Origin: Eubacterium sp.
Lineage (GTDB): Bacteria; Bacillota; Clostridia; Lachnospirales; Lachnospiraceae
Reading direction: 5' to 3'
Length of the DNA: 34,483 nucleotides
Assembly (NCBI GenBank): GCA_017614395.1
Contig: JAGABX010000013.1
Location: 1 to 34,483, forward strand
Shown here: piece after piece, positions 1,388 through 25,416 of the stretch
Layout of the letters: the number at the start of each line of letters is the position of its first letter
Numbering within the stretch: the stretch's first letter is position 1
Notes under the pieces: generated by a model
What the model saw: the letters and a program-made list of their open reading frames with translations, nothing else
Told to the model about the DNA's origin: nothing
Databases searched by the model: none
Position numbers and translations under genes: made by a program

Positions 1388-1416
1388 TTGACAAACTGAA
1401 TAATATATGATATGAT
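1388..1416 (+). promoter_or_regulatory. Promoter for asnB
   Basis: TTGACA (1388-1393), 17-bp spacer and TATGAT (1411-1416) begin 9 bp after the aroF stop codon. Transcription would start near 1423, just before the structured leader described next. Confidence 0.85.
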
Positions 1417-1425
1417 ACCGTGCAG

Positions 1426-1481
1426 TGAGGCAAAGGCGTCTCAGAGAATTCTCTGGGATGTCTTTGTCTTTTTCTTTGTTT
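1426..1481 (+). terminator. Attenuator in the asnB leader with a competing ANTAR-like hairpin
   Basis: A long hairpin runs from 1431 to 1466 (CAAAG with CTTTG at the base, CAGAG/CTCTG at the top, three G-U pairs between), about 16 bp with an AATT loop. It is followed by the T-rich tract 1467-1481, as in an intrinsic terminator, but it lies between the promoter and the asnB ribosome binding site. An alternative hairpin at 1426-1443 (stem TGAGGC/GTCTCA, hexaloop AAAGGC) uses the left arm of the terminator, so the two exclude each other. The hexaloop has A at position 1 and G at position 4, as known for ANTAR targets such as EutV. Only one such hairpin is clear; the usual upstream partner is not visible. 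The seen structure is firm, the ANTAR link is inferred. Confidence 0.65.
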
Positions 1482-1497: not shown

Positions 1498-3273
1498 ATG
1501 TGTGCGATACTGACTTATGCCAGACCTGATGTGTCGGAAAGCTTTTTTGTGGAAATGCTGATGAAGACACAGTCGCGCGGCCCGGACATGACGGATCATG
1601 TAAAGGTAAAGGGCGGACGGATCGGGTTTAACCGTCTCTCGATCATGGGACCGGGAGCGACGGGGATGCAGCCGTTCACACATCGTGGTAACGCGGTCGT
1701 TTGCAACGGAGAGATTTACGGGTTCGAGCCGCTGAAGGAGTACATGGCATCCATAGGATATCCGTTCGAGAGCGGCAGTGATTGCGAGTTGTTGATGCCG
1801 TTGTATGAGAAACTCGGAACAGCAATGTTTAATCTTCTCGATGCGGAGTTTGCCTGCGTGATATATGACGGAGAGAAGAATGAATTCATCGCAGCGAGAG
1901 ATCCGATAGGGATCAGACCTCTTTACTACGGATATGATGCTGACGGATATATAGTATTTGCATCGGAACCGAAAAATATCGTGGGAGTAGTTAATGAAAT
2001 AAAACCGTTTCCGCCGGGACATTATTATGAAAAAGGAGAGTTTGTATGCTACCGGGATATGACGACCGGAGGGGTGTATGCAAAAACCGGCTGGGAACCC
2101 GGTGTGGCCGGCCGGGGAAGACATTTGAGCGGTGTGGGGAATGCCCAGAGCAGAAAGACGATAGGAAGTCTTACTCTGGACAACATGCAGTTTGACCGGT
2201 CCGTTGTAAAGTACACAGGAGCACAGGCAGATGAGATACCGAATGATGCTCAGGCAAAGGATTCACCGGAGGGCCGTGAAGATCTGGATGCAATCTGCGA
2301 GGGAATCCATGATCGACTGGTAAACGGAATCAAAAAAAGATTAACCGCGGATCAGCCGATAGGTTATCTGCTCTCGGGCGGACTTGATTCCTCACTCGTA
2401 TGCGGTGTGGCCGCGAGCCTGCAGGACGGACCGATAGAGACATTTGCTATCGGAATGGATATCGACGCGATCGATCTGAAATACGCGAGACAGGTAGCGG
2501 ATTACATCCACAGTAATCATCATGAGGTCATTATTACGGCAAAGGATGTGGTTGATGCATTAGAACCTGTAATAAAGGCGCTGGCTACATATGACATAAC
2601 AACTATCAGGGCGTCGATAGGAATGTATCTGCTATGCAAGTGGATCAGGGAGAACACGGATATTCGGGTTTTGCTGACCGGAGAGATTTCGGATGAATTA
2701 TTCGGATACAAATACACCGATTTCGCGCCTGATGCGAAGGCGTTTCAGGAGGAGTCGAAAAAGCGTATCCGCGAACTTCACATGTATGATGTGCTCCGTG
2801 CGGACCGCTGCATCAGCGTAAACTCGCTGGAAGCCAGAGTTCCGTTCGGTGACCTCGATTTCGTCGATTACGTGATGGCAATCGATCCTGAGAAAAAGTT
2901 GAACCGTTACGGCATAGGAAAATATCTCCTGCGTCACGCCTTTGAGAAGGACGCACTGATCCCTCACGAAATACTGATGAGAGAAAAAGCCGCCTTCTCC
3001 GACGCCGTCGGTCACTCCCTGCGAGACGATCTGATGGAGCTCGCGGATAAAACCTACACGGATGAAGCTTTTGAAGAGGGAATCAAAAAATATTCGCATG
3101 CGAAGCCATTCACCAAGGAGTCATTACTATATCGCGACATCTTTGAAAAGTATTACCCCGGTCAGTCCCATATGGTAGACGATTTCTGGATGCCCAACAA
3201 ATCATGGGACGGCTGTAACGTTGACGATCCCTCCGCGCGCGTGTTATCTAACTATGGCGCCAGCGGAGAGTAA
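1498..3273 (+). CDS. asnB: Asparagine synthetase, glutamine-hydrolysing
   Basis: It makes asparagine from aspartate and ATP using glutamine as the nitrogen donor. The N-terminal class II amidotransferase domain begins with the nucleophile Cys2 directly after Met and shows CNGEIY (about 69-74). The synthetase domain has the PP-loop SGGLDSS (about 293-299) and GEISDELFGYKY. Cys2 and the AGGAGG at 1482-1487 fix the start. At 591 residues it is longer than the AsnB proteins I recall from related Clostridia (about 525). The extra is a Gly-, Ser- and Asp-rich segment of about 60-70 residues (roughly 189-260) in the linker between the two domains. The gene sits behind its own promoter and attenuator, suggesting control by nitrogen status. 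Confidence 0.95.
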   Translation: MCAILTYARPDVSESFFVEMLMKTQSRGPDMTDHVKVKGGRIGFNRLSIMGPGATGMQPFTHRGNAVVCNGEIYGFEPLKEYMASIGYPFESGSDCELLMPLYEKLGTAMFNLLDAEFACVIYDGEKNEFIAARDPIGIRPLYYGYDADGYIVFASEPKNIVGVVNEIKPFPPGHYYEKGEFVCYRDMTTGGVYAKTGWEPGVAGRGRHLSGVGNAQSRKTIGSLTLDNMQFDRSVVKYTGAQADEIPNDAQAKDSPEGREDLDAICEGIHDRLVNGIKKRLTADQPIGYLLSGGLDSSLVCGVAASLQDGPIETFAIGMDIDAIDLKYARQVADYIHSNHHEVIITAKDVVDALEPVIKALATYDITTIRASIGMYLLCKWIRENTDIRVLLTGEISDELFGYKYTDFAPDAKAFQEESKKRIRELHMYDVLRADRCISVNSLEARVPFGDLDFVDYVMAIDPEKKLNRYGIGKYLLRHAFEKDALIPHEILMREKAAFSDAVGHSLRDDLMELADKTYTDEAFEEGIKKYSHAKPFTKESLLYRDIFEKYYPGQSHMVDDFWMPNKSWDGCNVDDPSARVLSNYGASGE

Positions 3274-3359
3274 ATTTAAACCGAGTGGTAATGATTGCCG
3301 ACTCCATAGATTTTTTCGGGCCGGCAATAAATACAGTAATTCAGGAACAGTAATCTCAG

Positions 3360-3428
3360 CACGAGCGGCGTGAGTTTTCTCACAGCGAGCTTGCGAGTCG
3401 TGAGAAAAGCTCACATCAGCGCTCGTGC
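3360..3428. repeat. Long interrupted palindrome before glnN
   Basis: GCACGAGCG (3360-3368) pairs perfectly with CGCTCGTGC (3420-3428). Inside, GTGAGTTTTCTCAC pairs with GTGAGAAAAGCTCAC apart from one bulged base, and the tip carries two copies of GCGAG. Each inner arm can also fold alone as a small hairpin, so the transcript could switch between one long stem and two short ones. It lies in the glnN leader and is not followed by a T-run. It resembles the palindromic intergenic repeats common in Lachnospiraceae genomes, but copy number cannot be judged from this window. Confidence 0.7.
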
Positions 3429-3459: not shown

Positions 3460-5568
3460 ATGATGGAAGCAAAGAAATTACCCGAGGAATACGGAAGCCT
3501 CGTATTCGGAGACAAAGTAATGCGTGAACGCCTGCCCAAGGACATTTACAGGGCAGTTCATAAAACAATCGTGAACGGCACTCACCTCGAACTCGACGTT
3601 GCCAACGCGGTTGCGGTAGCCATGAAGGAGTGGGCAATCGAGAACGGAGCCACTCATTATACACACTGGTTCCAGCCGATGACAGGGCTCACCGCCGAGA
3701 AACACGATAGCTTTATCTCCCCTGAGGGTGACGGAAGCGTTATCATGGAGTTCTCGGGAAAGGAACTGGTAAAGGGCGAACCGGATGCTTCGAGTTTCCC
3801 GTCAGGAGGACTTCGCGCCACATTTGAGGCGAGAGGATATACCGCATGGGATCCGAGTTCTCCGGCATTTATCAAGGACGGATCACTCTATATCCCGACA
3901 GCGTTCTGCTCTTACGGAGGCGAGGCACTCGATAAAAAGACACCGCTCCTGCGTTCCATGGAAGCTCTCTCAAAGGAAGCGGTAAAGATGATGAAGATCC
4001 TCGGATATGAAGATGTGTCACGGGTAAACACGACCATCGGATCAGAGCAGGAATATTTCCTTATCGACAAGGAAGATTATATGCAGAGAAAGGACCTGCT
4101 TTTTACCGGACGCACACTGATCGGCGCGCCTGCGACAAAAGGTCAGGAGATGGAGGACCACTATTTCGGAGTTATCAAACCGAAGGTATCCGCATTCATG
4201 CATGATCTCGATGAGGAGCTGTGGAAACTCGGTATCCCTGCCAAGACAAAGCATAACGAGGTTGCACCCTCGCAGCATGAGATGGCGCCTGTATTTGAAA
4301 CGGCAAACGTTGCTGTGGATCACAACCAGCTGACTATGGAGGTTATGAAAAAAGTAGCCGACAAACACGGATACGCATGCCTCCTTCATGAAAAACCGTT
4401 TGACGGAATTAACGGTTCCGGAAAGCATAATAACTGGTCAATCTGCACGGATACAGGCATCAACCTCCTAGATCCGGGCAAGCATCCTGATGACAATGTA
4501 CCGTTTCTCGTTACCCTGATCGCTGTTATCGCGGCGGTTGATGAATATGCAGAGCAGCTTCGTCTGTCTGTGGCATCGGCAGGAAACGATCACCGTCTCG
4601 GAGCAAATGAGGCTCCGCCGGCAGTTATATCAATCTTTGTCGGTGATGAGCTCGCCAGGGTTTTGGAGAGCATAGAACAGGGTACAGCGTTCAAAAGCGG
4701 GGACAAGGAAAAAATGGAAATGGGAGCACAGGTTCTCCCGCATATAACAAAGGACAACACGGATCGTAACCGTACATCACCGTTTGCGTTTACCGGAAAC
4801 AAATTCGAGTTCCGCATGCCGGGGTCGAGCGTATCCGTAGCAAATGCGAACATTGTCCTGAACACGGCAGTAGCGGAGATTCTGTCACGCATGAGCGCAG
4901 AAATAGAAGGCCTGACCGGCAATGCGCTTCATGACAGACTGACGGAATTACTGAAGGAAACACTTATTGCTCACAAGAGGGTTCTTTTCAACGGAAACGG
5001 ATACACGGACGAGTGGATCGCAGAGGCTGAGAAGAGAGGTCTCCCGAACCTTAAATCACTGCCGGATGCAATGCCGGAGTGGATTTCCGAAAAATCGATC
5101 AAACTTTTTACATCACACCAGATCTTCACAAAAGAGGAGATTGAGTCTCGTTACGAGATCCTGCTTGAGAACTATTCAAAGTCCATCAATATCGAGGCTC
5201 TTACCATGCAGGAGATGGTTCGCAAGGATCTGACATCAGGTCTCATCGCATACGAGCAGGATCTGACCAACGAGATTATGCAGAAAAAGGATGTGATGCC
5301 GGCAGCTAAGGCTACGCTCGAGATAGGCATCCTGAAAACTCTTGACGATACATCAGCTCAGATTGCAGAAAAACTTGAGACATTGAAAAAGGATACGCTC
5401 GAGGCTGAGGGTATAGAGGATGTCCAGAAGCAGGCGGATTTCTACGAGAAAAAAGTGTTGGCTGATATGAATGAGCTGAGAGTATATGCAGATCAGGCAG
5501 AGGCTCTGATTCCGGATGAGTATCTGAGTTATCCGACCTACGGACAGATGCTGTTTTCACTCAGATAG
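3460..5568 (+). CDS. glnN: Glutamine synthetase type III
   Basis: It forms glutamine from glutamate, ammonia and ATP in the cytosol and is probably the main ammonium-assimilating enzyme here. The 702-residue length is typical of the GSIII family, far longer than type I. Recognisable blocks are GSEQEYFLID, KHNEVAPSQHE, HEKPFDGINGSGKHNNWS, AGNDHRLGANEAPPAVIS and DRNRTSPFAFTGNKFEFR, so the metal- and substrate-binding elements are all present. AAGGAGG (3444-3450) with 9-nt spacing selects the ATG at 3460. It lies between asnB and the glutamate synthase genes. No convincing promoter was found in the 186-bp gap before it, which is largely filled by the palindrome at 3360-3428. Confidence 0.96.
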   Translation: MMEAKKLPEEYGSLVFGDKVMRERLPKDIYRAVHKTIVNGTHLELDVANAVAVAMKEWAIENGATHYTHWFQPMTGLTAEKHDSFISPEGDGSVIMEFSGKELVKGEPDASSFPSGGLRATFEARGYTAWDPSSPAFIKDGSLYIPTAFCSYGGEALDKKTPLLRSMEALSKEAVKMMKILGYEDVSRVNTTIGSEQEYFLIDKEDYMQRKDLLFTGRTLIGAPATKGQEMEDHYFGVIKPKVSAFMHDLDEELWKLGIPAKTKHNEVAPSQHEMAPVFETANVAVDHNQLTMEVMKKVADKHGYACLLHEKPFDGINGSGKHNNWSICTDTGINLLDPGKHPDDNVPFLVTLIAVIAAVDEYAEQLRLSVASAGNDHRLGANEAPPAVISIFVGDELARVLESIEQGTAFKSGDKEKMEMGAQVLPHITKDNTDRNRTSPFAFTGNKFEFRMPGSSVSVANANIVLNTAVAEILSRMSAEIEGLTGNALHDRLTELLKETLIAHKRVLFNGNGYTDEWIAEAEKRGLPNLKSLPDAMPEWISEKSIKLFTSHQIFTKEEIESRYEILLENYSKSINIEALTMQEMVRKDLTSGLIAYEQDLTNEIMQKKDVMPAAKATLEIGILKTLDDTSAQIAEKLETLKKDTLEAEGIEDVQKQADFYEKKVLADMNELRVYADQAEALIPDEYLSYPTYGQMLFSLR

Positions 5569-5627: not shown

Positions 5628-8600
5628 ATGCGTGGGGGACACAGGGGGAACTCTGTGTTTCCTACTGTAAAAAATAACAAAAATGAATGGATGATGATGA
5701 TGAATAATAGTGACAATAATAACGCGAATAATAATACTGACTGGTGGAAAAACGAGCATGATGCATGCGGTATCGGTGCCGTAATAAATATCGATGGGAA
5801 AAAGGATCACAGAGTCCTTGATGACGCGCTCAGCATTGTCGAAAAACTCGAGCACCGCGCCGGAAAGGACGCTACCGGAAAGGTCGGTGACGGTGTCGGA
5901 ATACTGACTCAGATATCGCATTCCTTTTTCAAAAAACTGTGTAAAAAAACAGGGATAGAAATAGGCGATGAAGGTGACTACGGAATCGGCATGTTTTTCT
6001 TTCCTCAGGAGGTTATAAAACGCCGTTTTGCAATGAGGATGCTCGAGGTAATCGCGGAAAAGGAGGGAATAGAATTCCTCGGCTGGCGTGATGTGGACAC
6101 CCATCCCGAGCTTCTCGGACAGGTTGCAGTGGATTGCATGCCACACATCAGCCAATGCTTTTTAAAAAGACCGGACGATGTTTCCAGGGGACTCGAATTT
6201 GACAGAAGACTTTTCTGCCTGCGTCGTGAGTACGAGCAGAGCTCTGAGGATACCTATATCTGTTCTCTTTCATCACGTACAATTGTTTACAAGGGCATGT
6301 TTTTAGTCGGGCAGCTGAGGAATTTTTATGAGGATCTGCTGTCAAAGGATTACAAAACAGCGATAGCGCTGGTACACTCCAGATTCTCCACAAACACTAC
6401 CCCGTCGTGGCAGCGTGCCCATCCGTATCGTATGATCGCGCACAATGGTGAGATAAATACCATTCGCGGAAATGCAGACCGCATGCTGGCACGTGAGGAG
6501 ACTATGAGTGGCGCTGTATTGACGGATGATCTGAAAAAAGTATATCCTGTTATCGCGGCATCCGGTTCCGATTCGGCAATGCTTGATAACACTCTCGAGT
6601 TCCTATATATGAACGGAATGGAGCTTCCGCTGGCGATGATGATCACAATTCCGGAGCCTTGGAAACATGATGATGCCATGAGTCAGGAACGCAAGGATTT
6701 TTATCACTATTACGCAACCATGATGGAGCCGTGGGATGGCCCGGCGGCGATACTTTTTACCGACGGAGAGTTATTCGGGGCGACACTTGACCGGAACGGA
6801 CTCCGTCCCAGCCGTTACTATGTGACCAGGGACAAGAGACTTATCCTGGCATCAGAGGTCGGAGTTCTCGATATACCCGAGGACACGATCGAGAAAAAAT
6901 CGAGACTGTCACCGGGAAGGATGCTCGTAGTTGACACGAAGGAGGGGAGAATCCTCTCGGATGCCGAATGCAAGGAGCGTTACGCGCATGCTCATCCGTA
7001 CGGTGAGTGGCTCGACAGACATCTGCTGCACCTCGATCATCTGAACATCCCGAATAAAAAGATTCCGACGCATGAGCAGTCTGTTCGTGACAGGCTGTAC
7101 AAGGTGTTCGGGTATTCGTATGAGGATGTAAAAAGCCAGATACTTCCTATGGCGATGGATGGCGTGGAGCCGACGGTCTCCATGGGAAATGATGTGCCGT
7201 TGGCGATGTTATCCTCCCATCACCAGCCGTTGTTCTGCTATTTTAAGCAGCTGTTTGCTCAGGTTACAAATCCGCCGATCGATTCGCTCAGGGAGAAGAT
7301 TGTTACCGACACGACTGTTTATATCGGTTCCGATGGTGATCTCCTGCAGGTAAAGGGTGATAACTGCAGAGTGCTCGAGATCAATTCCCCGATATTGACC
7401 GGTGTTGATCTGATGAAGATCGAAGCACTCGATACGGAAGGATTTCACACTGCAAAGGTATCGCTGTTATATTATAAAAACACCCCGCTTGAGCGCGCTC
7501 TGGATCAGTTAAATATTGCGGTAGACAGGGCGGTTTCAGAGGGTGCGAATATCATAACCCTTTCGGACAGGGGAGTTGATGAAAACCATATGCCCATACC
7601 TTCACTGCTCGCTGTTTCATCGGTTGAGCAGCACTTGGTGCGCACGAAAAAGAGAACCCAGGTATCACTCATTCTCGAGAGCGGCGAACCCCGTGATGTT
7701 CACCAGATAGCATGCCTTCTCGGATACGGTGTGCGGGCAATCCACCCGTACCTTGCCCACGAGTGCATCTCGGAGATGATCGATATCGGAATGATCGACA
7801 AGGATTACCATACAGCGATAGAAGATTATAATAAAGCGCTGTTGAACGGGGTGGTCAAAATTGCCGCAAAGATGGGAATATCCACACTGCAGTCCTATCA
7901 GTCTGCACGTATTTTTGAGGCAATAGGACTTTCACGGGAACTCATAGACAAATACTTTACAGGAACAGTGAGCCGCGCGGGTGGCATCGGGATCAGAGAG
8001 ATCGGAGAGGATGTAGAACTGTGTCATAACAGGGCATTTGATCCTCTGGGACTGCCGGTGGACTCGACGCTTGACTCCATAGGTTTCCACGGACTGCGAA
8101 GCGGACATGACGCTGAGGATCATATGTATAATCCGAAAACGATCGTAACACTGCAGCGCGCGGTCAGAGAAGGAAACTATGATATATTCAGGGAGTACGC
8201 TCAGATGGTGGATGACGAGAACAGACCGCATACACTGCGGGCCCTGCTCGAGTTTGTACCTGCTGAAACTCCGGTTCCGTTAGATGAGGTTGAGAGCGAG
8301 GATGAGATAGTAAAACGTTTCCAGACCGGAGCGATGTCCTATGGTTCGCTGTCTCAGGAGGCGCATGAAACACTTGCTATGGCGATGAACCGCCTCGGCG
8401 GCAGGTCGAATACCGGTGAGGGCGGCGAGGCTACCGAGAGATTCGGCACCGAGAAAAACAGTGCGGTCAAACAGGTTGCGAGCGGGCGTTTCGGCGTGAC
8501 CTCAAGTTATCTGCTCAGCGCAAAGGAAATTCAGATAAAAATGGCGCAGGGAGCAAAGCCCGGCGAGGGTGGTCATCTGCCCGGGAAAAAGGTGTATCCG

Positions 8601-10247
8601 TGGGTTGCCAAGACCAGATTTTCAACTCCGGGCGTATCGCTCATCTCCCCGCCGCCGCATCATGATATTTATTCGATCGAGGATCTGGCTCAGTTGATCT
8701 ACGATCTTAAAAATGCGAATGACAAGGCAAGAATTTCAGTAAAGTTAGTTTCAGAGGCGGGAGTAGGAACGATCGCGTCCGGCGTTGCGAAAGCCGGCGC
8801 GGGTGCCATTCTGATATCGGGTTACGACGGAGGAACCGGAGCTGCACCATCCTCCTCGGTGCATCATGCGGGACTTCCGTGGGAACTCGGTGTCAGTGAG
8901 GCACACAGATGTTTAGTTGAAAACGGCCTCAGATCCCACGTTGTTTTGGAAACCGACGGAAAACTCATGACCGGCCGTGATGTTGCCATAGCTGCGTTGC
9001 TCGGAGCGGAGGAGTTCGGATTCGCGACAGCGCCGCTGGTATCGTTAGGCTGTATGATGATGAGGGTTTGTTCCAAGGATACCTGTCCCGTCGGGATCGC
9101 GACACAGAATGAGTGTCTGAGGAAACGTTTCGCAGGCAAGCCTGAGCATGTGATGAATTTCATGAGATTTGTTGCGAGACAGCTCAGGGAGATCATGAGC
9201 GAGATGGGATTTCGAACTGTCGAGGAGATGGTGGGACGCACGGATCGTTTGAAAACCAGACAGGAGGGAAGGACCGACAGGGCTGTACTCGCGGATCTGT
9301 CACGGATATTAAACAGTGATATTGATAAAGAGTTTTCGCTGAACACGCATTTTGTTGCGAAGGACAGCTACGATTTCGGACTTGAAAAAACACTCGACGC
9401 AACAAAACTCATTCCCGTGTATAAAAAGAAAAAGAGCTCGCAGAAAACGGAAATTGATGTGGAGATATCGAGCACTGACAGAAGCTTCGGAACGTTGCTC
9501 GGTTCACGGATTACTGAGGAGCATGCGGACGGACTTAAGGAGGATACAGTTACGGTTGTTGCGCGCGGTGGAGCCGGCCAGTCGTTCGGAGCCTATATAC
9601 CGAAAGGACTGACGCTTCGCCTGTACGGTGATGCCAATGACGGATTCGGCAAGGGACTTTCCGGAGGGAAACTGATTGTAACACCACCTGAGGAGGCTGC
9701 ATACAAAGCGCATGATAACATCATAATCGGAAATGTTGCCCTGTATGGAGCAACAGCAGGAAAAGCATATATAAACGGCGTTGCCGGTGAGCGGTTCTGC
9801 GTGAGAAACTCCGGCGCAACTGCGGTTGCCGAGGGGTGCGGCGACCACGGGCTCGAGTACATGACAGGCGGGCGCGCGGTAATTCTCGGAATGACAGGTA
9901 AAAACTTCGCGGCCGGCATGAGCGGCGGTATCGCATATGTTCTTGACAGAGAGCATACGTTGTATCTGCGGATGAACAAGGATATGGCTTCGCTCACGGA
10001 GGTAACCGGAGAGTATGATATCAGTGAGCTGAAGGGAATCCTGACAGACTATGTTGCTGAGACCGGATCGGAGTTCGGCAGGGAAGTGTTGGAGCATTTT
10101 GATGAGTACCTGCCTGATTTTAAAAAGATAGTGCCGAACGATTACCAGAAGATGCTGACGGCAATTTCGCATTATGAGGAGCAGGGCGTCGATTCGGAAA
10201 CTGCCGTGTATGAGGCGTTTAAGGAGGTGACCGGTCAAAATGGGTAA
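5628..10247 (+). CDS. gltB: Glutamate synthase large subunit
   Basis: It transfers the amide of glutamine to 2-oxoglutarate to give two glutamates, together with GltD. Order of parts: a leader peptide, the class II amidotransferase domain starting at Cys47 (CGIG), the central domain, the FMN-binding synthase domain with HLPGKKVYPWVAKTR, the 3Fe-4S cysteines C-x5-C-x4-C (about 1142, 1148, 1153, then PVGIATQ), and the Gly-rich GXGXG C-terminal domain. The 1539-residue length is normal. The propeptide of about 46 residues is unusually rich in Asn with a run of Met (about 22-37). The ATG at 5628 has AAAGAGG upstream; later in-frame ATGs near 5691-5700 lack a good ribosome binding site but cannot be excluded. 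A hairpin overlaps the first codons. The gene follows glnN by 59 bp. Confidence 0.95.
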   Translation: MRGGHRGNSVFPTVKNNKNEWMMMMNNSDNNNANNNTDWWKNEHDACGIGAVINIDGKKDHRVLDDALSIVEKLEHRAGKDATGKVGDGVGILTQISHSFFKKLCKKTGIEIGDEGDYGIGMFFFPQEVIKRRFAMRMLEVIAEKEGIEFLGWRDVDTHPELLGQVAVDCMPHISQCFLKRPDDVSRGLEFDRRLFCLRREYEQSSEDTYICSLSSRTIVYKGMFLVGQLRNFYEDLLSKDYKTAIALVHSRFSTNTTPSWQRAHPYRMIAHNGEINTIRGNADRMLAREETMSGAVLTDDLKKVYPVIAASGSDSAMLDNTLEFLYMNGMELPLAMMITIPEPWKHDDAMSQERKDFYHYYATMMEPWDGPAAILFTDGELFGATLDRNGLRPSRYYVTRDKRLILASEVGVLDIPEDTIEKKSRLSPGRMLVVDTKEGRILSDAECKERYAHAHPYGEWLDRHLLHLDHLNIPNKKIPTHEQSVRDRLYKVFGYSYEDVKSQILPMAMDGVEPTVSMGNDVPLAMLSSHHQPLFCYFKQLFAQVTNPPIDSLREKIVTDTTVYIGSDGDLLQVKGDNCRVLEINSPILTGVDLMKIEALDTEGFHTAKVSLLYYKNTPLERALDQLNIAVDRAVSEGANIITLSDRGVDENHMPIPSLLAVSSVEQHLVRTKKRTQVSLILESGEPRDVHQIACLLGYGVRAIHPYLAHECISEMIDIGMIDKDYHTAIEDYNKALLNGVVKIAAKMGISTLQSYQSARIFEAIGLSRELIDKYFTGTVSRAGGIGIREIGEDVELCHNRAFDPLGLPVDSTLDSIGFHGLRSGHDAEDHMYNPKTIVTLQRAVREGNYDIFREYAQMVDDENRPHTLRALLEFVPAETPVPLDEVESEDEIVKRFQTGAMSYGSLSQEAHETLAMAMNRLGGRSNTGEGGEATERFGTEKNSAVKQVASGRFGVTSSYLLSAKEIQIKMAQGAKPGEGGHLPGKKVYPWVAKTRFSTPGVSLISPPPHHDIYSIEDLAQLIYDLKNANDKARISVKLVSEAGVGTIASGVAKAGAGAILISGYDGGTGAAPSSSVHHAGLPWELGVSEAHRCLVENGLRSHVVLETDGKLMTGRDVAIAALLGAEEFGFATAPLVSLGCMMMRVCSKDTCPVGIATQNECLRKRFAGKPEHVMNFMRFVARQLREIMSEMGFRTVEEMVGRTDRLKTRQEGRTDRAVLADLSRILNSDIDKEFSLNTHFVAKDSYDFGLEKTLDATKLIPVYKKKKSSQKTEIDVEISSTDRSFGTLLGSRITEEHADGLKEDTVTVVARGGAGQSFGAYIPKGLTLRLYGDANDGFGKGLSGGKLIVTPPEEAAYKAHDNIIIGNVALYGATAGKAYINGVAGERFCVRNSGATAVAEGCGDHGLEYMTGGRAVILGMTGKNFAAGMSGGIAYVLDREHTLYLRMNKDMASLTEVTGEYDISELKGILTDYVAETGSEFGREVLEHFDEYLPDFKKIVPNDYQKMLTAISHYEEQGVDSETAVYEAFKEVTGQNG
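5633..5661 (+). promoter_or_regulatory. Hairpin at the start of gltB
   Basis: GGGGACACAG pairs with CTGTGTTTCC (with two G-U pairs) around an 8-nt loop, a few bases after the gltB start codon at 5628. It could limit initiation at the first ATG, or be leader RNA if a downstream ATG is used. There is no T-run after it, so it is not a terminator. Confidence 0.4.
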
Positions 10248-11706
10248 AACAGGTGGATTTTTAGAATATGACAGAAATGAGAATAAAAAGGTTTCGCCAT
10301 TGGAACGCATAAAAAACTTTAACGAGTTTTATGTGATGAACGAGGAAAAAGACAGACGGTGTCAGGCAGCGAGATGCATGGACTGCGGAGTTCCGTTTTG
10401 TCAGTCGGCAATGAATTTAGGCGGCATGGTTGTAGGCTGTCCTCTTCACAACCTGATTCCCGAGTGGAATGATGCCATATATAAAAAGCAGGACAGACAT
10501 GCACTGTCAAGACTGTTGAAAACAAATCCGTTTCCTGAGTTTACGGGGAGAGTCTGTCCTGCTCTCTGTGAGAAGGCGTGCATCAACGGTCAGGACGGAG
10601 AGAGTGTAACAGTTCATGACAACGAACGTTATATTATTGAAACGGCCTATGAAAACGGGTGGATGAGTCCTGGACCCCCTAAACAGCGCAGTGGGAAAAA
10701 GGTTGCTGTGATCGGCAGCGGTCCGTCCGGACTGAGTACCGCATATACACTGAACAGAAGAGGGCATCAGGTAACGGTATTCGAGAGGGAGGATCGGATC
10801 GGCGGACTTCTGATGTACGGCATACCCAACATGAAACTCGATAAAAAGGTAATAGCCCGCAGGCAGAAACTGATGGAGGAGGAAGGTATACTTTTTAAGA
10901 CAGGAGTAGATGTCGGAAAAGACATAACCGTTGCCAAACTGAAAAAGGAATTTGATGCCATCGTGATGTGCTGCGGAGCGAAAAAGCCGAGAAACCTCAC
11001 TGCAAAGGGGATCGATAACGTAAATCATGTTTATTTTGCGGTTGATTTCCTGACCGATGTAACCAAAAGTTATCTCGAAAAATGCCTGGATAAAAAGGTA
11101 GCGCCTTTAGTTAAAAACAAACATGTCGTTATCGTCGGCGGAGGCGATACGGGAAACGATTGCATAGGTACCTCAATACGACTCGGCGCGAAGAGTGTTA
11201 CCGCTCTCGAGATGATGCCGAAACCTCCTGTAGAGAGAGCCGAAAACAATCCGTGGCCGCAGTGGCCGAAAACCCTGCGAACTGACTACGGTCACGAGGA
11301 GGCGATAGATAAATTCGGAGAAGATCCGAGAGTGTTTGAGACTACCGTAAAGGAGGTAAAATCCGTAAAGGGCGCTATCAAAGAAATCGTTACCGTAAAG
11401 GTATCGTTCAAAAACGGAAAACTATCTGAAGTGAAGGGCACGGAACAGACTCTTCCATGTGATCTGCTTCTCATTGCTGCGGGATTTGTCGGGGCAGAGG
11501 AGTATCTTCCGAAAGCAGCAAAAACAGAGCTAGGTCCCAGAGGATGTGTTGCAACCGAAGAAGGAAAACATAAAACAAGCGTGGACGGCATTTTTACTGC
11601 GGGAGATATGCATCGCGGACAGTCATTAGTCGTATGGGCCATCGCAGAGGGCAAGGCATGCGCGAGAGAGGTGGACGAATATCTGATGGGATACACAAAT
11701 ATGTAG
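10240..11706 (+). CDS. gltD: Glutamate synthase small subunit
   Basis: This 488-residue flavoprotein passes electrons from NAD(P)H through FAD and Fe-S clusters to GltB. The N-terminal Fe-S region has Cys at about 46, 49, 54, 67, 106, 110 and 114 (CMDCGVPFC, GCPLHN, TGRVCPALCEKAC). The FAD dinucleotide fold follows (GSGPSGLSTAY, about 159-169), then a second nucleotide fold (GGGDTGNDC) and the C-terminal FAD contact GDMHRGQSLVVWAIAEG. The ATG overlaps the end of gltB by 8 bp with AAGGAGGTG upstream, so the two are translationally coupled and made in step. Confidence 0.96.
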   Translation: MGKTGGFLEYDRNENKKVSPLERIKNFNEFYVMNEEKDRRCQAARCMDCGVPFCQSAMNLGGMVVGCPLHNLIPEWNDAIYKKQDRHALSRLLKTNPFPEFTGRVCPALCEKACINGQDGESVTVHDNERYIIETAYENGWMSPGPPKQRSGKKVAVIGSGPSGLSTAYTLNRRGHQVTVFEREDRIGGLLMYGIPNMKLDKKVIARRQKLMEEEGILFKTGVDVGKDITVAKLKKEFDAIVMCCGAKKPRNLTAKGIDNVNHVYFAVDFLTDVTKSYLEKCLDKKVAPLVKNKHVVIVGGGDTGNDCIGTSIRLGAKSVTALEMMPKPPVERAENNPWPQWPKTLRTDYGHEEAIDKFGEDPRVFETTVKEVKSVKGAIKEIVTVKVSFKNGKLSEVKGTEQTLPCDLLLIAAGFVGAEEYLPKAAKTELGPRGCVATEEGKHKTSVDGIFTAGDMHRGQSLVVWAIAEGKACAREVDEYLMGYTNM

Positions 11707-11718
11707 AGTCAGAAAGGG

Positions 11719-11747
11719 TTGATTTTTTATAGGCGTGGGTGTAGAAT
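11719..11747 (+). promoter_or_regulatory. Possible promoter for carAB
   Basis: TTGATT (11719-11724), 17-bp spacer and TAGAAT (11742-11747) lie 12 bp after gltD. Start would be near 11754, leaving a leader of about 60 nt. carAB could also be read from upstream. Confidence 0.5.
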
Positions 11748-11812
11748 GTGTGGGTATAGATGAATTAATGTCGTATGTCGGCAAATCTGTTTGGGCAAGG
11801 AGTAACAGATCA

Positions 11813-12901
11813 ATGAATAACAATAAAAGGAAACTGATCCTCGAGGACGGGAGTGTGTACGAGGGATACGGTTTCGGAGCGGATACCGATACTGGGGGTG
11901 AGCTGGTGTGTAACACATCCATGGTCGGCTATCAGGAGATCGTATCCGATCCGTCGTACACGGATCAGGCGGTGGTCATGAGTTATCCGCTGATCGGAAA
12001 TTACGGGATTACCGATGAGGATTTTGAGAGCAGGATAGTATCGCCGCAGGCCATGATAGTCAGGGATTACAACGATCAGCCCTCTAATTTCCGTTATACG
12101 AAAACACTGGCTGAACTGTTGTATGATAACGGCGTGGTCGGAGTCAGCGGTGTTGATACGAGAAAACTAGTGAGACATATCAGGGATGTCGGCTCGCAGA
12201 GGGTGTTGATAACCTCTGACGACATCAGTGCGGATGAGGGGAAGGAGAGAATACAAAACGAACCAGTTCCGCATGATGCGGTGAGCCGTGTCAGTTGTAA
12301 AAAGCGCTGGTATGCCAGAACTGCCAATCCGAAATATAACGTGGTCGCCATCGATTGCGGGATCAAACTGAATATCGTCCGAATGCTGAACCGGTACGGG
12401 TGCAACGTGGTAGTAGTACCCTATGATACCGATAGTGATACAATTCTTCAGATGCATCCGGACGGTGTTTTTGTGTCTAACGGTCCGGGTGACCCTGCGG
12501 ATGTAACGGTGGTTGTCGAGACTATTCGCAAACTCAGGACATTGCTTCCGATTTTCGGAATATGTCTCGGACATCAGTTGATCGCGAGGGCGTACGGCGC
12601 TGAAACCTACAAACTGAAATTCGGTCACAGAGGTGGAAACCATCCGGTGAAAAACCTGATCACCGGGAGGATAGAGATTACCTCACAGAACCATAGTTAC
12701 GCGGTTGATGAGAAGTCGATCGCTGATAAAAAAATAAAGGTCTCTCACATAAACCTTTTGGATAACACCGTGGAGGGACTTTTTGCGGAAGAAGACAGGG
12801 TGATTTCAGTCCAGTATCACCCTGAGAGCGCGCCGGGTCCTCAGGACAGCGCCTATCTGTTTGATCGGTTTATCGGGATGATGGGAGGAAAAAATGTCTA
12901 A
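11813..12901 (+). CDS. carA: Carbamoyl-phosphate synthase small subunit
   Basis: It hydrolyses glutamine and channels ammonia to CarB to make carbamoyl phosphate for arginine and pyrimidines. The N-terminal half has the CarA-specific block with [13 protein letters not shown] and [14 protein letters not shown]. The C-terminal half is a class I amidotransferase with FVSNGPGDP, the nucleophile motif FGICLGHQ, and the catalytic HPE in [10 protein letters not shown]. An earlier in-frame start near 11735 would add 26 residues not found in the family. The ATG at 11813 with AAGGAG at 11797-11802 gives 362 residues, as expected. It overlaps carB by 8 bp. Confidence 0.95.
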
Positions 12902-15900
12902 AAGAGATGATATAAAAAAAGTATTGGTAATAGGCTCCGGTCCCATAGTAATCGGTCAGGCAGCGGAGTTTGACTATGCCGGTACCCAGGCATGTTTAGC
13001 ACTGAAAGAAGAGGGTTATGAGGTTATCCTTGCAAACTCCAATCCCGCTACCATTATGACAGATACGTCAATTGCGGATAAGGTTTATATGGAACCTCTG
13101 ACACTTGAATTCATGGCGAGAATCTGCCGGTATGAGAGACCTGATGCGATCGTTCCCGGAATCGGCGGGCAGACCGGATTAAACCTTGCTTTGCAGTTGA
13201 GTGAAAAAGGGGTTTTGGAAGAGTGTGAAATAGAACTGTTGGGAACTGACAAGGAAAGCATCATGTGCGCGGAGGACAGGGAGCGTTTTAAGGAACTGTG
13301 TGAGTCGATAGGCGAACCGGTCATTCCGTCACAGATAACTTACAGTGTCGAGGAGGGGCTTGATGCCGCCGCAAAAATCGGGTATCCGGTTATTCTTCGT
13401 CCTGCGTTTACGCTGGGAGGAACAGGAGGCGGATTTGCCAACGACGAGGCAGAGATGAAGGTCAGGATGGCTCATGCCCTCGAGGCGTCACCCGTTCATC
13501 AGGTTTTAGTTGAAAAAAGCATACGTGGATTCAAGGAAATTGAATATGAGGTGATCCGTGATAAAAATGACACTGCGATAGTTGTCTGCAATATGGAGAA
13601 TTTAGATCCTGTCGGCATCCACACCGGAGATTCAATTGTAGTTGCACCGTCGCAGACGCTCACAAACAGGGAATACCATATGCTCAGGGATTCCGCCCTG
13701 AGAATTATCAGGGCGCTCCGGGTAGAGGGAGGCTGTAATGTGCAGTTTGCGCTCGATCCGGAGAGTTTTCGTTATTATGTGATAGAGGTAAATCCGAGGG
13801 TGTCCAGATCATCGGCACTCGCGTCAAAAGCAAGCGGATATCCGATAGCCAGGGTTTCCGCTAAAATAGCGGTCGGTATGACGCTGGATGAAATACAGCT
13901 TGCGAATACGCCCGCATGTTTTGAGCCTTCCCTGGATTATGTGGTAACAAAGGTTCCGCGGTTTCCGTTTGATAAATTCACGACGGCATCAAACACGCTT
14001 TCTACTCAGATGAAGGCAACGGGCGAGGCGATGAGTGTGGGACGGACCATGGAGGAAAGCCTGTTGAAGGCAATCAGGTCTTTGGAGGACGGCAAAAACC
14101 ACATTCATCTGGAGAAATTTGATTCCGCGAATATGACTGTGGATGAGCTTCTTGACTATATAAAAGAGGGCACTGATGACAGACTGTATGCGATAGCGCA
14201 GCTGATGTGGTGCGGAGTGGATCCGTCGGTAATTAACCAGAGGACAATGATCGATATGTTCTTCCTCGATAAAATAAAAAATATAGTTATGTTTGAAAAA
14301 GAATTAGAGGGAGTATCGATTACGGACGATCTGTTGATCAGGGCGAAAAAGATGGGCTTTTCAGATTCGTATATCGCGGAACTGACCGGCGTTACTGAGG
14401 ATGAGATATGGGAACTCAGACGGCAGAAAAACATCTATCCGGTGTATAAAATGATCGATACCTGCGCGAGTGAGTTTGAGAGTTATGTGCCTTATTTTTA
14501 TTCTACCTATGAGGAGGAAAACGAATCAATAGTATCGGACAAGGAAAAAATAATAGTGCTCGGCAGCGGACCGATACGGATAGGCCAGGGAGTGGAATTT
14601 GATTACTCAACTGTACATGCGATACATGCCATCAGAGAGCTCGGATATGAGGCAATTGTGATCAACAACAATCCCGAAACGGTATCTACGGATTATACCA
14701 CGGCTGACAAACTATATTTTGAGCCGCTGACAATAGAGGATATCATGAATATAATTGATCTTGAAAAACCGAAGGGTGTTATAGTTACACTTGGAGGTCA
14801 GACTGCCGTTAATCTCGCGGAACCGCTCACGAGACGCGGTGTTCCCATTATCGGAACTGACAGCGCAGCAATTGACAAGGCTGAGGACAGGGATTCATTT
14901 GAGTCAGTCATAATGGAACTCGGGATACCGCATCCTGTCGGTGAGGCGGTAACGGATATAGAGAGTGGAGTGACGGCAGCGGAGAGGATCGGATATCCGG
15001 TTCTCGTGCGTCCGAGTTTCGTTCTCGGCGGCCGCGCGATGGAGATAGTTGCCAATGAGGAGATGCTTCGCCATTATCTGAAAAACGCAGTGGAGGTTGA
15101 TGTCGACAAGCCTGTTTTAGTCGATCAGTACATAGTCGGCAAGGAGGTTGAGGTTGACGCGATCTGCGACGGAGAGGATGTATTCATCCCGGGTATTATG
15201 GAGCTTGTCGAGAGAACCGGAGTTCATTCCGGTGATTCCACGAGTGTTTATCCTCCGTTCTCAATTTCGGAAAAAGTAAAAGAAACAATACGTGATTATA
15301 CGACGAGAATAGGGCGTGGGATTGGCATTGTAGGACTGTTTAATATCCAGTATATAGTTGACGGTGAGAAGGTTTATATAATTGAGGTGAATCCACGAGC
15401 CAGCCGGAGCGTTCCCTTTTTATCAAAATCGACAGGTTTCTCGCTGGTCGGAATCGCTACAAAGGCTATGCTGGGTGTATCATTGAGGGAGCAGGGAATA
15501 GTGGACATGTATCCGGAGGAGGCGGAGTGCCATTTTGTAAAAGCGCCTGCGTTCTCGTTTGAAAAACTCTCCGGAATGGATGCCTATCTCTCGCCGGAGA
15601 TGAAATCGACAGGAGAGGCGATCGGCTATGACACACAGTTGAACCGTGCTTTTTATAAAGCGATGCAGGCATCCGGGATCAAGATGAAGGAATACGGAAC
15701 CGTAGTTGTGACGCTGGCGGACGAGGACAAGGAGGAGGCGTTGCCTCTGGTGCGCAGGTTCTACCAGTTGGGATTCAACATAGAGGCGACAGTCGGGACC
15801 GCAAACTTTTTAAAAGAACATGGAATCAGGACGCGTATGAGGGGAAAACTGTCGGAGGGCAGTGATGAAGTACTACGGTCGATACGCGCCGGTTATGTCA

Positions 15901-16079
15901 GTTATATTATCAATACCAGAGCAGTGCTGTCAGGGATACATTACGAGGACGGCGTCGCAATCAGGCAGTGCGCTGTCGCAAACGGAGTGACGATGTTTAC
16001 TTCGCTTGATACAGTGAGGATTTTGTTGGATGTTTTGGAGGAAATCTCCCCGCGAATCAGAGCGATGTGCGCGATATAG
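12894..16079 (+). CDS. carB: Carbamoyl-phosphate synthase large subunit
   Basis: The synthetase subunit makes carbamoyl phosphate from bicarbonate, two ATP and ammonia delivered by CarA. The duplicated architecture is plain: the first half opens with [20 protein letters not shown] and the second (near residue 550) with [19 protein letters not shown]. Each half has an ATP-grasp domain ([13 protein letters not shown] and [14 protein letters not shown]). The last 130 residues form the MGS-like allosteric domain. At 1061 residues it is full length. GGGAGG just before the ATG, inside carA, and the 8-bp overlap imply coupled translation. Confidence 0.96.
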
Positions 16080-16136: not shown

Positions 16137-17306
16137 ATGGAATATACAAAGGAAGAAATCATGCAATACATGGAGGAGGAAGACGTGAAGTTTATCCGTC
16201 TGATGTTCCGTGATGCGTTCGGTGTCCAGAAGAATATTTCGGTGATGCCTACTGAGCTAAAAAAAGCATTTGAGGGAGGCATCGGGATCAACGCGAGGAG
16301 GATACCCGGATTTGAAAAAAGCGAGACGGGTGAATTGTATCTGGTTCCGGATCCGGAGACAATCACCGTGCTCCCGTGGAGGCCGGAAAGCGGACGTGTG
16401 GTGAGGATGTATTGTGATGTTTGCAGGGGGAACCGCATTCCGCACGAGAACGATACGCGCGTGATGTTGAAAAAGGCCACAGAGCATGCAAAAAATGAAG
16501 GGATAGAGTTTAAATTCGGTTCAAAATCGGAGTTCTATCTTTTTAAGCTGGATGATGAAGGGAACCGTACGGATATTCCGCATGATGAAGCAGGATACAT
16601 GGACATAGCCCCATTGGATACGGGTGAGAATATCCGCAGGGAAATATGCCTGACCATAGAGGAGATGGGATTGAGACCGGAGAGATCGCACCACGAGCAG
16701 GGTCCCGGTCAGAACGAAATAGATTTTCACTACGGCGTTCCGCTGGATGCAGCAGATCAAATGTCAACATTTATGATGGCTGTCCGCACTATTGCCGGAA
16801 GAAACGGGTTGTATGCGGATTTTTCACCGGTTCCTCTGAAGGACAAGCCCGGCAATGGTTATCACATAAACATATTTGCGACAGATAAGGATGGAAATGA
16901 TGTGTGTAAGTTTGTTGCAGCGGGGATACTTGAAAAGATCCGCGAGATCACGCTTTTTCTGAACCCATCTGAAAACTCATATAAACGGTTTGGAACGAAC
17001 ACGGCGCCTGATCGGATCAACTGGTCGGCGGAGGGAGAGACTTCGTTGATGCATGTAGCTGAGCGCGCCGGTTTTATAAGGGCTGAACTCCGGTCTCCTG
17101 ATGCATTGAGCAATCCTTATCTTGCATATTCCATTCTGATCGAAGCGGGATTGTACGGCATTAAAAACCACCTTGAACTGCCGGTCGAAACAGGAGATGA
17201 GTGCCTCCTTCCGCAGTCTCTCAAGGAAGCAAGAGAGATCGCGGCAAAGAGCGATTTTATTCGCAGTGTGGTACCAAAGGATATTTTTGAAGAATACATG
17301 GGCTGA
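16137..17306 (+). CDS. Degenerate type I glutamine synthetase homologue
   Basis: The fold is clearly type I glutamine synthetase, but at 389 residues it is shorter than the usual 440 or so and several catalytic positions differ by eye alignment. The Asp-bearing FDGSSIEGF segment is INARRIPGF (51-59), placing Asn52 at the ammonium-site Asp. The GPExEF metal motif is GSKSEF (128-133), with Lys130 for the first Glu. The Glu of the GYEAP flap is absent (GTNTAP, 286-291), and the RNRS arginine stretch has become AEGETS. Kept are SHHE (Glu187), QNEIDF (Glu194), His243 and RAELRSPD (Glu317). It probably binds nucleotide or glutamine but makes little glutamine. The ATG at 16137 follows AAAGGAG. The next gene is an ANTAR regulator 6 bp away, suggesting a sensor role. 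A weak or altered ligase remains possible. Confidence 0.85.
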   Translation: MEYTKEEIMQYMEEEDVKFIRLMFRDAFGVQKNISVMPTELKKAFEGGIGINARRIPGFEKSETGELYLVPDPETITVLPWRPESGRVVRMYCDVCRGNRIPHENDTRVMLKKATEHAKNEGIEFKFGSKSEFYLFKLDDEGNRTDIPHDEAGYMDIAPLDTGENIRREICLTIEEMGLRPERSHHEQGPGQNEIDFHYGVPLDAADQMSTFMMAVRTIAGRNGLYADFSPVPLKDKPGNGYHINIFATDKDGNDVCKFVAAGILEKIREITLFLNPSENSYKRFGTNTAPDRINWSAEGETSLMHVAERAGFIRAELRSPDALSNPYLAYSILIEAGLYGIKNHLELPVETGDECLLPQSLKEAREIAAKSDFIRSVVPKDIFEEYMG

Positions 17307-17312
17307 TAACAT

Positions 17313-17900
17313 ATGGCAGAAAGAAAAACAAGACAGCATGATATACTGGTCGTCTCTTCGTATGAGAAGTTCAGTGACTCGATGAAGCGGGTTCTCTCGG
17401 ATGGGAGATACCGCGATGTTTGCGTGCGAAAAAGCGCGTCTGCAGCCCGCAGGGAACTGCTTGAAAAGGATTACGATGTTACGTTGATAAATATTCCGCT
17501 GAGTGATGAGCCGGGAGTTGACCTGGCAATTGACATCGCGTCGACATATCCGACGGGAGTGCTCGTAGTCGCCTCCTCTGAAATCAGCGAGGATGTCGCG
17601 GAAAAAGTAACCGATGACGGCGTGATAGTTATCGCGAAACCGGTTTCGGCCCGTGTGGTAAAGAGAGCGATCAGGGTATTATGCGCGCTTCTGGACAAGC
17701 TGAAAAAATCCGAGAAAAAGGTTCTGACTCTCGAGGAGAAAATGGAGGAGATCCGAATAGTAAACCGAGCCAAATGGAAACTGATCGACGAGCAGGGGAT
17801 GAGTGAGGATGAGGCTCACAGGCATATCGGGAAACTCGCCATGGACAGATGTGTTTCCAAACGGGAGATAGCTGAGGAAATATTGGGTAACGCCGGCTGA
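17313..17900 (+). CDS. ANTAR-domain antiterminator with pseudo-receiver (NitR-like)
   Basis: The 195-residue protein has a receiver-like domain (about 10-120) and a C-terminal ANTAR RNA-binding domain (about 140-192, with NRAKWKLIDEQGMSEDEAH). ANTAR proteins bind paired hexaloop hairpins in nascent leaders and prevent termination. The receiver lacks phosphorylation residues: the acidic pair after strand 1 is Ser-Ser (15-16) and the acceptor Asp is Asn60 (TLINIPL), while the conserved Lys109 (AKP) remains. It is therefore likely controlled by protein binding, as AmiR is by AmiC. It follows the glutamine synthetase homologue by 6 bp and lacks a clear ribosome binding site of its own, suggesting coupled translation. 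A glnA-nitR pair is known in solventogenic clostridia. The asnB leader in this window is a candidate target. Confidence 0.88.
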   Translation: MAERKTRQHDILVVSSYEKFSDSMKRVLSDGRYRDVCVRKSASAARRELLEKDYDVTLINIPLSDEPGVDLAIDIASTYPTGVLVVASSEISEDVAEKVTDDGVIVIAKPVSARVVKRAIRVLCALLDKLKKSEKKVLTLEEKMEEIRIVNRAKWKLIDEQGMSEDEAHRHIGKLAMDRCVSKREIAEEILGNAG

Positions 17901-24931: not shown

Positions 24932-25416
24932 ATGAAGGATAGATATTTATATGAGAATAGTCTGGTTCTGAAGAATCTGTTGGACATTCGGGATCCGGAA
25001 CTTTTGAATCAGGCGGAAGCTGATTATGTAACATTCCGGCTAAAGGAGATAGTAGCAAACCCGTTAGCAGGGGAATATGATTATGCCCACCTTCTCAGTA
25101 TGCATCAATACATCGGAAAGAGATGGATACGCATGATGCGGCGGTGAGTTTTTCCGCATCCTTAGCGAAGATTTGGAAGGTTCATCCTTTTAGAGAAGGA
25201 AATACCCGAACAACTGTGACATTCTGTTGCCAATTTGCAGACCATATAGGTCTGAATCCGGACAGAAAGCTGTTTGAGGATAATGCTCAGTATGTGAGAA
25301 CTGCTTTAGTGGCATATAATGCTGTTTTTAAAGATCTGGGTGATCTATCAAAGCCAGAGTATCTGATAAAGATTGTAGAAGATGCATTTGAAAGAGGGAA
25401 GAATAAAAACAAGTAA
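24932..25416 (+). pseudogene. Fic-family toxin gene broken by an internal deletion and frameshift
   Basis: The first part (24932-25147) encodes the N-terminus of a VbhT-like Fic protein up to HLLSMHQYIGK and then runs into an out-of-frame tail and a stop. The second part, in another frame from about 25123 to 25416, encodes HDAAVSFSASLAKIWKVHPF, the catalytic HPFREGNTRT motif and a normal C-terminus (AYNAVFKDLGDLSKPEYL). The middle of the Fic domain, which in relatives includes the segment after HQYIF with WAG, is missing, roughly 70-90 residues. Fic enzymes transfer AMP to target proteins; this one should be inactive. The junction lies near 25115-25125. A sequencing error alone would not explain the missing block. 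Confidence 0.85.

Follow-up and report, generated by a model that had tools for sequence, protein, structure and literature searches.

A glutamine synthetase (GS) homologue that lacks six catalytic residues is encoded directly upstream of an ANTAR-type antiterminator protein in a stretch of 34,483 nucleotides from Eubacterium sp. (contig JAGABX010000013.1; hereafter, the window). Judged from comparisons across the Clostridia, this catalytically dead GS would serve as the sensory partner of the ANTAR protein and thereby control the antiterminator, a reading to which we assign a probability of roughly 0.7.

The two genes stand at the end of a same-strand run that reads, in order, asnB, a type III GS gene (GSIII), gltB, gltD, carA, carB, the GS-like gene and the ANTAR gene (Table 1). 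Re-reading of the frames reproduced the coordinates, the strand and the 6-bp gap between the last two genes given in an initial annotation of this DNA. A profile search of the genome, which is 94.7% complete, found a single ANTAR protein. GS-family genes number three, namely the GS-like gene and two of type III, one in the run and the other on contig C38, which bears out the earlier remark that a full GSIII in the same block makes the GS-like copy redundant for catalysis. A DAHP synthase gene (351-1379) lies just upstream of the asnB leader; by eye, the sequence before the asnB promoter looks different in the loci L064, L065, L066 and L069. An imperfect inverted repeat in the gap between asnB and GSIII (3355-3425) was considered as a leader of GSIII and rejected, since its 22-base core has 14 copies in the genome at up to three mismatches (10 of them exact; none in a reversed control), as befits an interspersed palindromic element. 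Farther downstream, a short frame at 25123-25416 with the motif HPFREGNTR looks, by eye, like a fragment of a Fic-domain protein.

Table 1. Features of the asnB leader and of the gene run that ends with the GS-like/ANTAR pair (positions in the window)
Feature	Positions	Strand	Basis and remarks
Predicted promoter before asnB (TTGACA 1388-1393, 17 nt, TATGAT 1411-1416)	1388-1416	+	Read from sequence
Hairpin, arms TGAGGC and GTCTCA around AAAGGC; ANTAR-type hexaloop (A1, G4, closing C-G)	1426-1443	+	Near predicted mRNA 5' end
Intrinsic terminator, 5' arm shared with the hairpin	1427-1478	+	20-bp fold, -30.8 kcal/mol, z -7.0, U tract
asnB, glutamine-hydrolysing asparagine synthase; first gene behind the leader	1498-3273	+	Profile matches
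Type III glutamine synthetase (GSIII)	3460-5568	+	Profile matches
gltB, glutamate synthase large subunit	5628-10247	+	Profile match; true start probably downstream of 5628
gltD, glutamate synthase small subunit	10240-11706	+	Profile match
carA, carbamoyl-phosphate synthase small chain	11735-12901	+	Profile match; true start probably downstream of 11735
carB, carbamoyl-phosphate synthase large chain	12894-16079	+	Translation read by eye and adjacency to carA
GS-like protein (type I GS fold, no C-terminal thong)	16137-17306	+	389 aa; Pfam/NCBIfam profiles and alignments
ANTAR protein, receiver without phospho-site (S15 S16 N60)	17313-17900	+	195 aa; Pfam and alignment

The fold of the GS-like protein is that of a GS: PF00120 and PF03951 both score above their cut-offs, and GS domains are its only Pfam matches at E <= 0.001, with no solute-binding-protein fold of the kind present in AmiC-AmiR type pairs. 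Its score against the GlnA equivalog profile, 253.8 bits, falls below the cut-off of 429. We scored 13 residues whose catalytic roles and positions (Salmonella numbering) we assume from general knowledge of the enzyme. According to the alignment, six are missing (D50, S53, E129, E327, R339 and R344) and seven are retained (E131, E212, E220, H269, R321, E357 and R359); D50 has become Asn, S53 Arg, E327 Thr and R344 His. The initial annotation had called N52 and K130, in the protein's own numbering, as replacements of catalytic residues beside the retained E187, E194, H243 and E317, and it had described a flap without Glu and an altered RNRS region. Translation and alignment agree with these calls, the flap reading FGTNTAP and the RNRS region EGET. 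Nor have the residues merely shifted: alignments to three solved type I GS and to 125 homologues concur, and none turned up elsewhere in the protein. The changes S53 to Arg and R344 to His come in addition to those described earlier, as does the loss of the C-terminal thong region, the part that joins the two GS rings (PMC9249791). The GS-like protein is, on this evidence, almost certainly a pseudo-enzyme.

Pairs of this kind recur in the Clostridia. Among 61 genomes (our own and 60 relatives), 49 gave a GS match and 46 an ANTAR match, and the two genes were usually adjacent in the loci that were read; in the class sample, 105 of 196 genomes carry an ANTAR gene. From 83 ANTAR loci of the class sample, taken from 86 candidate places, and the loci of the relatives, with identical GS and frames below 300 aa dropped from the alignment, we collected 89 distinct type I GS whose gene immediately precedes an ANTAR gene on the same strand. 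All 13 residues are kept in 22 of these, and all 12 besides S53 in 37; S53 was set aside in the counts, as it is often the only residue changed in a protein that is complete elsewhere. The other 52 miss at least one residue other than S53, and 33 miss at least two. The control consisted of type I GS not linked to an ANTAR gene, picked by hand from the class sample and the relatives. Four of its 37 members were excluded because a locus edge cuts them (L294b, L315, L316 and L320), and the remaining 33 complete proteins keep all 13 residues; this control covers the conventional kind of GS, the three fetched matches with E above 1e-63 all being cut by an edge. The contrast between linked and unlinked GS is strong (Fisher 1.7e-10), with relatedness ignored here as in all our counts across genomes. 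Hence, the pair and its residue loss, first noticed in the window, are found again elsewhere (52/89 linked against 0/33 unlinked GS degenerate), with different residues affected in the two main lineages. The thong region is likewise absent from 28 of the 52 degenerate linked GS and from 1 of the 37 others. Because these 37 proteins have lost none of the 12 residues besides S53, the pairing does not depend on a dead GS. One locus (L244/L294; G096:C1:2277307-2281880) has two type I GS genes in tandem: an intact copy directly precedes the ANTAR-linked one, in which only S53 is changed. This duplication may show how a sensor copy originates. The linked GS of locus L010 (G007:C13) carries about 30 extra residues after a GNGYH-type motif.

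The neighbouring protein has a clear ANTAR domain (PF03861, 58.7 bits; cut-off 27.3). Its receiver carries S15, S16 and N60 instead of the acidic pair and the phospho-acceptor Asp, as had been described, and so has neither hallmark of a response regulator controlled by phosphorylation. The phospho-acceptor Asp occurs in 9 of the 89 GS-linked ANTAR proteins as opposed to 21 of the 24 encoded in the fetched loci without an adjacent GS. It is found in 6 of 37 proteins beside a GS that has lost at most S53 and in 3 of 52 beside a degenerate one. Since the Asp is so rarely kept, the input to most GS-linked ANTAR proteins is not ordinary phosphorylation, whether their GS is dead or not. The Asp-lacking exceptions among the 24 GS-free proteins are L269, L245 and L228; the first lies 104 bases from a contig start, so that an adjoining GS could be missing, an explanation that the other two lack.

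An RNA element before asnB had escaped the initial annotation. The hairpin starts nine nucleotides past the predicted promoter, its 3' part also falls within the 5' arm of the terminator, and a similar promoter arrangement precedes most of the other leaders that we read. A1 and G4 were reported as important for the hexaloops of ANTAR targets, which have a closing C-G pair (PMC3369931), and the asnB leader combines such an A1/G4 hexaloop with a paired stem and overlap with a terminator. In an alignment of 17 seeds from the genome itself and its relatives, C6, A7, A8, G10 and G13 are invariant while the stem covaries: 84.4% of its cells are paired, and 11 cells are double-changed against a shuffled mean of 3.3; the number of pairs changed on both sides was matched by 60 of 500 shuffles, the remaining measures by 0 or 1. 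A further alignment of 34 rows (A3), which was fitted to the model and in which at least three rows are opposite-strand or off-target (L355, L362 and L365), has 88.7% paired cells and 37 double-changed cells against a shuffled mean of 15.2. Here, both-side changes were matched by 266 of 500 shuffles and further pair types by 55, and the remaining measures again by 0 or 1. The bare 16-base motif at three mismatches did not rise above its reversed control (16 versus 43 matches), so that only the model and its best matches carry weight. Rfam reported nothing at gathering score in the window, its weak matches to the leader lying far below the cut-offs.

A tandem pair of hexaloops with stems of at least four pairs was absent from the window (20 simulated sequences averaged 0.6), and the single-hairpin motif then came from reading the leaders by eye. 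The leader of asnB has one hairpin, and no upstream P1 hairpin was found; the predicted promoter leaves no room for one there. Two leaders before GSIII (L349 and L350, from G127 and G253) possibly contain two hexaloop-like hairpins in a row. Both hairpins are reported to matter in the eut leader (PMC3369931). A crystal-structure paper redefines the minimal ANTAR target as one hexaloop and raises single-hexaloop sites as a possibility (PMC8934654), so that the leaders described here would form a natural single-hexaloop regulon. It is very likely that the ANTAR protein acts on the asnB leader.

The model found four matches in the genome, before asnB, amtB, purF and dapL, with E-values from 3.9e-12 to 1.1e-7. 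The match that follows (E 0.11) is weaker by six orders of magnitude and corresponds to the asnB leader read on the other strand. Among 195 other genomes of the class, none of which supplied seeds, a leader was detected at E < 1e-3 in 50 of 104 genomes with an ANTAR gene and in 3 of 91 without one (G093, G097 and G242). This is the co-occurrence test to rely on, since the set in which 34 of 46 ANTAR-positive and 2 of 15 ANTAR-negative genomes had a match contains the seeds. At the same threshold and under strict filters, the leader occurs in 19 of 30 fetched genomes with a degenerate linked GS, 11 of 29 with another linked GS and 2 of 14 with only an unlinked ANTAR gene. At least 30 of the 68 class matches lie on the same strand within 400 nt upstream of a GS gene, a lower bound in that part of the GSIII places and seven type I places were used and distances run to the start of the profile match. 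The genes behind the leaders were read by eye: 36 of the 51 matches in the relatives precede asnB, GSIII, gltB, amtB or purF, and 24 of 29 class loci precede GSIII, amtB, asnA, asnB, gltB, a glutamate dehydrogenase or a type I GS gene (four were checked against the library), the remaining five including the wrongly located L362 and L365. Eight of the 51 relatives' matches stand before genes for a RelA/SpoT-region protein (four), a PPDK_N protein (two), a C26 amidotransferase (one) or an S1-domain protein (one), and seven before unrelated-looking genes, one of these matches being inside a gene (G043:C7). Two such genes, for a RelA/SpoT-region protein (L133:1054-2040) and a PPDK_N protein (L138:2-2545), were seen behind the same leader in relatives; proteins of these kinds behind the leader imply that the regulon may reach beyond nitrogen assimilation. 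An alternative in which the hairpins act as attenuators recognised by a different factor is improbable: 54 of the 104 ANTAR-positive genomes lack a match at E < 1e-3 and three ANTAR-negative genomes have one, but A1, G4 and the closing C-G are invariant as in reported ANTAR targets (PMC3369931), leaders and ANTAR genes strongly co-occur, and the genome yielded a single ANTAR protein.

The active site of the linked GS has been lost in more than one way. In the clade of the window protein, D50, the flap Glu and R344 of the phosphate site have disappeared whereas E131, E212, E220, H269 and E357 persist, and the changes D50 to Asn, E327 to Thr and R344 to His are identical in its eight aligned members. 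Nine other loci of the same genus (L022 and L024-L031) have lost E212, E220, H269, E327 and E357 and have kept R339 and R344; the notion that these other species possess a working type I GS is therefore ruled out for the nine that were aligned. A tree of 122 GS, computed by a quick method, places the two degenerate kinds in different major clades; the degenerate state requires nine changes on it, at least six of which are forced by well-supported branches. By these sequence criteria, the losses represent at least two independent lineages, both of them represented in the genus of the window and there in the same gene cluster. Both kinds accompany gltB, gltD, carA and carB, the window kind following carB and the other lying between gltD and carA. 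The window pair is more distant from the other pair of its own genus (GS 38-39%, ANTAR 23-27% identity) than from pairs of two other genera of its family (GS 59-61%, ANTAR 43-48%). The distances of GS and ANTAR proteins correlate over 89 pairs (r 0.72; 0 of 500 shuffles as high), a value to which shared ancestry contributes. That the two proteins differ together within one genus and that their distances correlate suggests that their genes travel together. We give slightly better than even odds to the wider proposal that, on at least two occasions, a GS lost a different half of its active site and became a metabolite receptor dedicated to an RNA antiterminator. According to this proposal, the GS-ANTAR cassette would have been exchanged between bacteria as a unit while keeping to the same nitrogen cluster, and the dead enzyme would report glutamine to the nascent RNA through a one-hairpin, 5'-terminal ANTAR switch.

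Named relatives whose GS-like protein is 88% identical to that of the window are Lachnospiraceae bacterium P6B14, an uncultured Lachnospiraceae and an uncultured Clostridiales bacterium; one of those at 75% identity is labelled as coming from sheep rumen. Both genes are under purifying selection in close relatives. Among three relatives that are each 88% identical to the window protein (L322-L324), dN/dS is 0.02-0.03 for the GS-like gene and 0.07-0.09 for the ANTAR gene; when the window serves as the reference, 11 of 12 comparisons have saturated synonymous sites, and dN of the GS-like gene is 0.085-0.205. Because its dN/dS is below that of the ANTAR gene, the GS-like gene does not look like a decaying one. 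Strong selection would also fit a different ligase, for instance a gamma-glutamyl-amine ligase, whose adjacency to the ANTAR gene reflects only co-regulation. GS-like ligases for other substrates exist (the NCBIfam GGputSyn profile matches the window protein at 146 bits, with a cut-off of 650), and the window clade has kept most metal ligands and the substrate arginines. We nevertheless find such a ligase unlikely: R339, R344, the flap Glu and one metal-binding Glu (E129) are absent from the window protein, a new chemistry shared with the other lineage of the genus is implausible given that the latter has no E212, E220, H269, E327 or E357, and the linked ANTAR proteins, mostly without phospho-acceptor, need another input.

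A role of the GS-like protein as regulatory subunit of this run's GSIII, with the ANTAR protein acting alone, is similarly doubtful. The window and several relatives do have GSIII in the cluster, and the 30 genomes of the class sample whose linked GS is degenerate all encode it; however, it is also present in 27 of 30 genomes (counted by locus) with an intact one, no significant difference between the two groups (p 0.24). Moreover, the constant neighbour of the GS-like gene is the ANTAR gene, GSIII often being elsewhere (the loci were chosen by ANTAR, which favours this point), and GS and ANTAR proteins differ together within one genus (39% and ~25% identity). Least probable is a decaying glnA leftover beside an ANTAR protein that regulates alone. 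The absence of six catalytic residues and of the thong would agree with it, but a dN/dS lower than that of the ANTAR gene, the same replacements of D50, E327 and R344 in all eight members of the window clade, and losses that arose several times beside ANTAR genes, with 0/33 among unlinked GS, speak against it.

For the dead GS as sensory partner, the simplest model would be ligand-gated sequestration of the ANTAR protein, for which we infer the contact, the ligand and the direction. The GS-like protein would probably be the direct partner. It would bind glutamine (or glutamate) in its old substrate pocket and, when nitrogen is plentiful, hold the ANTAR protein; at low glutamine, it would free it, much as AmiC and NasS free AmiR and NasT when their ligands appear. 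A dimer of the ANTAR protein would then bind the 5'-terminal hexaloop of the nascent mRNA and hold the stem, so that the overlapping terminator could not form, and transcription would read through into the asnB run, amtB, purF and dapL. The run from asnB through GSIII, gltBD, carAB and the GS-like gene to the ANTAR gene may be one transcript; if it is one operon, the circuit would be self-reinforcing.

We presume that R321 and R359 bind the substrate amino acid in GS and that R339 and R344 form the phosphate site. None of the 13 residues is retained better than R321 and R359, each of which is missing from 1 of the 89 linked GS; this points to an amino-acid ligand, and the chances that it is glutamine or glutamate appear about even. 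Where the initial annotation had the pseudo-enzyme bind glutamine or a nucleotide, the first option is thus favoured by the retained arginines and the second weakened by the changes at R339 and R344. Its broader idea of a glutamine-sensing RNA switch holds up in the parts that sequence can test, namely residue loss under selection, a receiver without phospho-acceptor, a recurring pair, redundancy with GSIII and an RNA element. R62, an Arg through which Bacillus GS contacts GlnR, has been replaced by Lys in the window protein and persists in 5 of the 52 degenerate linked GS, so that the GS-GlnR contact cannot be the same here. Bacillus-type GS reports glutamine to GlnR/TnrA mainly through the E-flap and the D50 loop (PMC9249791). 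Because these two elements supply most of the GlnR contacts in that complex, their remodelled counterparts would be the likely docking face for the ANTAR protein, and the lost residues may have been traded for this face. The Bacillus-type enzymes differ in being active, dodecameric or tetradecameric, and in having DNA-binding partners, whereas the window protein lacks catalytic residues and thong and its partner would bind RNA.

Among the closest known arrangements is that of Clostridium saccharobutylicum, for which we assume the gene order glnA-nitR. The GS of this pair is a working enzyme. We regard the GS-like/ANTAR pair and its leader as a variant of this clostridial system, likened to it by gene arrangement, with an ANTAR protein in a GS/GOGAT cluster and a type I GS directly upstream; new is the GS without catalytic residues, which by its residues is not a competent enzyme. 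The window further departs from glnA-nitR by the presence of GSIII and by leaders that also precede amtB, purF and dapL. NitR was reported, by a review citing Stutz et al. (2007), to induce the GS/GOGAT genes by antitermination upon nitrogen limitation, with which the direction proposed here fits (PMC6316151). Clo1313_2030-2036 of Clostridium thermocellum resembles the window in gene content, an ANTAR gene for a proposed ammonia-sensitive antiterminator lying with GS and glutamate synthase genes (PMC4676874). The leader shares with those of the Enterococcus faecalis eut genes a short stem capped by a hexaloop that has A1 and G4, and the overlap with a terminator (PMC3369931, PMC8934654), but it has one hexaloop near the predicted mRNA 5' end.

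That a partner other than a kinase holds an ANTAR protein and frees it upon a change of ligand, as we propose for the window pair, has counterparts elsewhere. AmiC binds amides. NasS is similar to a nitrate-binding protein (PMC3795266), and AmiC-AmiR and NasS-NasT are the precedents for ANTAR proteins held by a partner (PMC3369936, PMC3795266); unlike the GS-like protein, neither AmiC nor NasS is an enzyme of the pathway that is regulated. Our literature search, most subscription papers lying outside its reach, found no description of a dead GS paired with an ANTAR protein, which is no proof of absence.

The control of ammonium assimilation with NitR in C. saccharobutylicum has been described as not fully understood (PMC6316151). 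A GS that is under selection without its catalytic residues, beside a receiver that lacks its phospho-site, offers a concrete answer for NitR-type control. It is also a caution for annotation: in Clostridia, a gene labelled as glutamine synthetase that adjoins an ANTAR gene may not make glutamine. Collectively, our data suggest that such bacteria have more than once made this enzyme a nitrogen sensor; if true, this would add an enzyme-derived receptor to the known partners of ANTAR proteins and a nitrogen regulon to these Lachnospiraceae.
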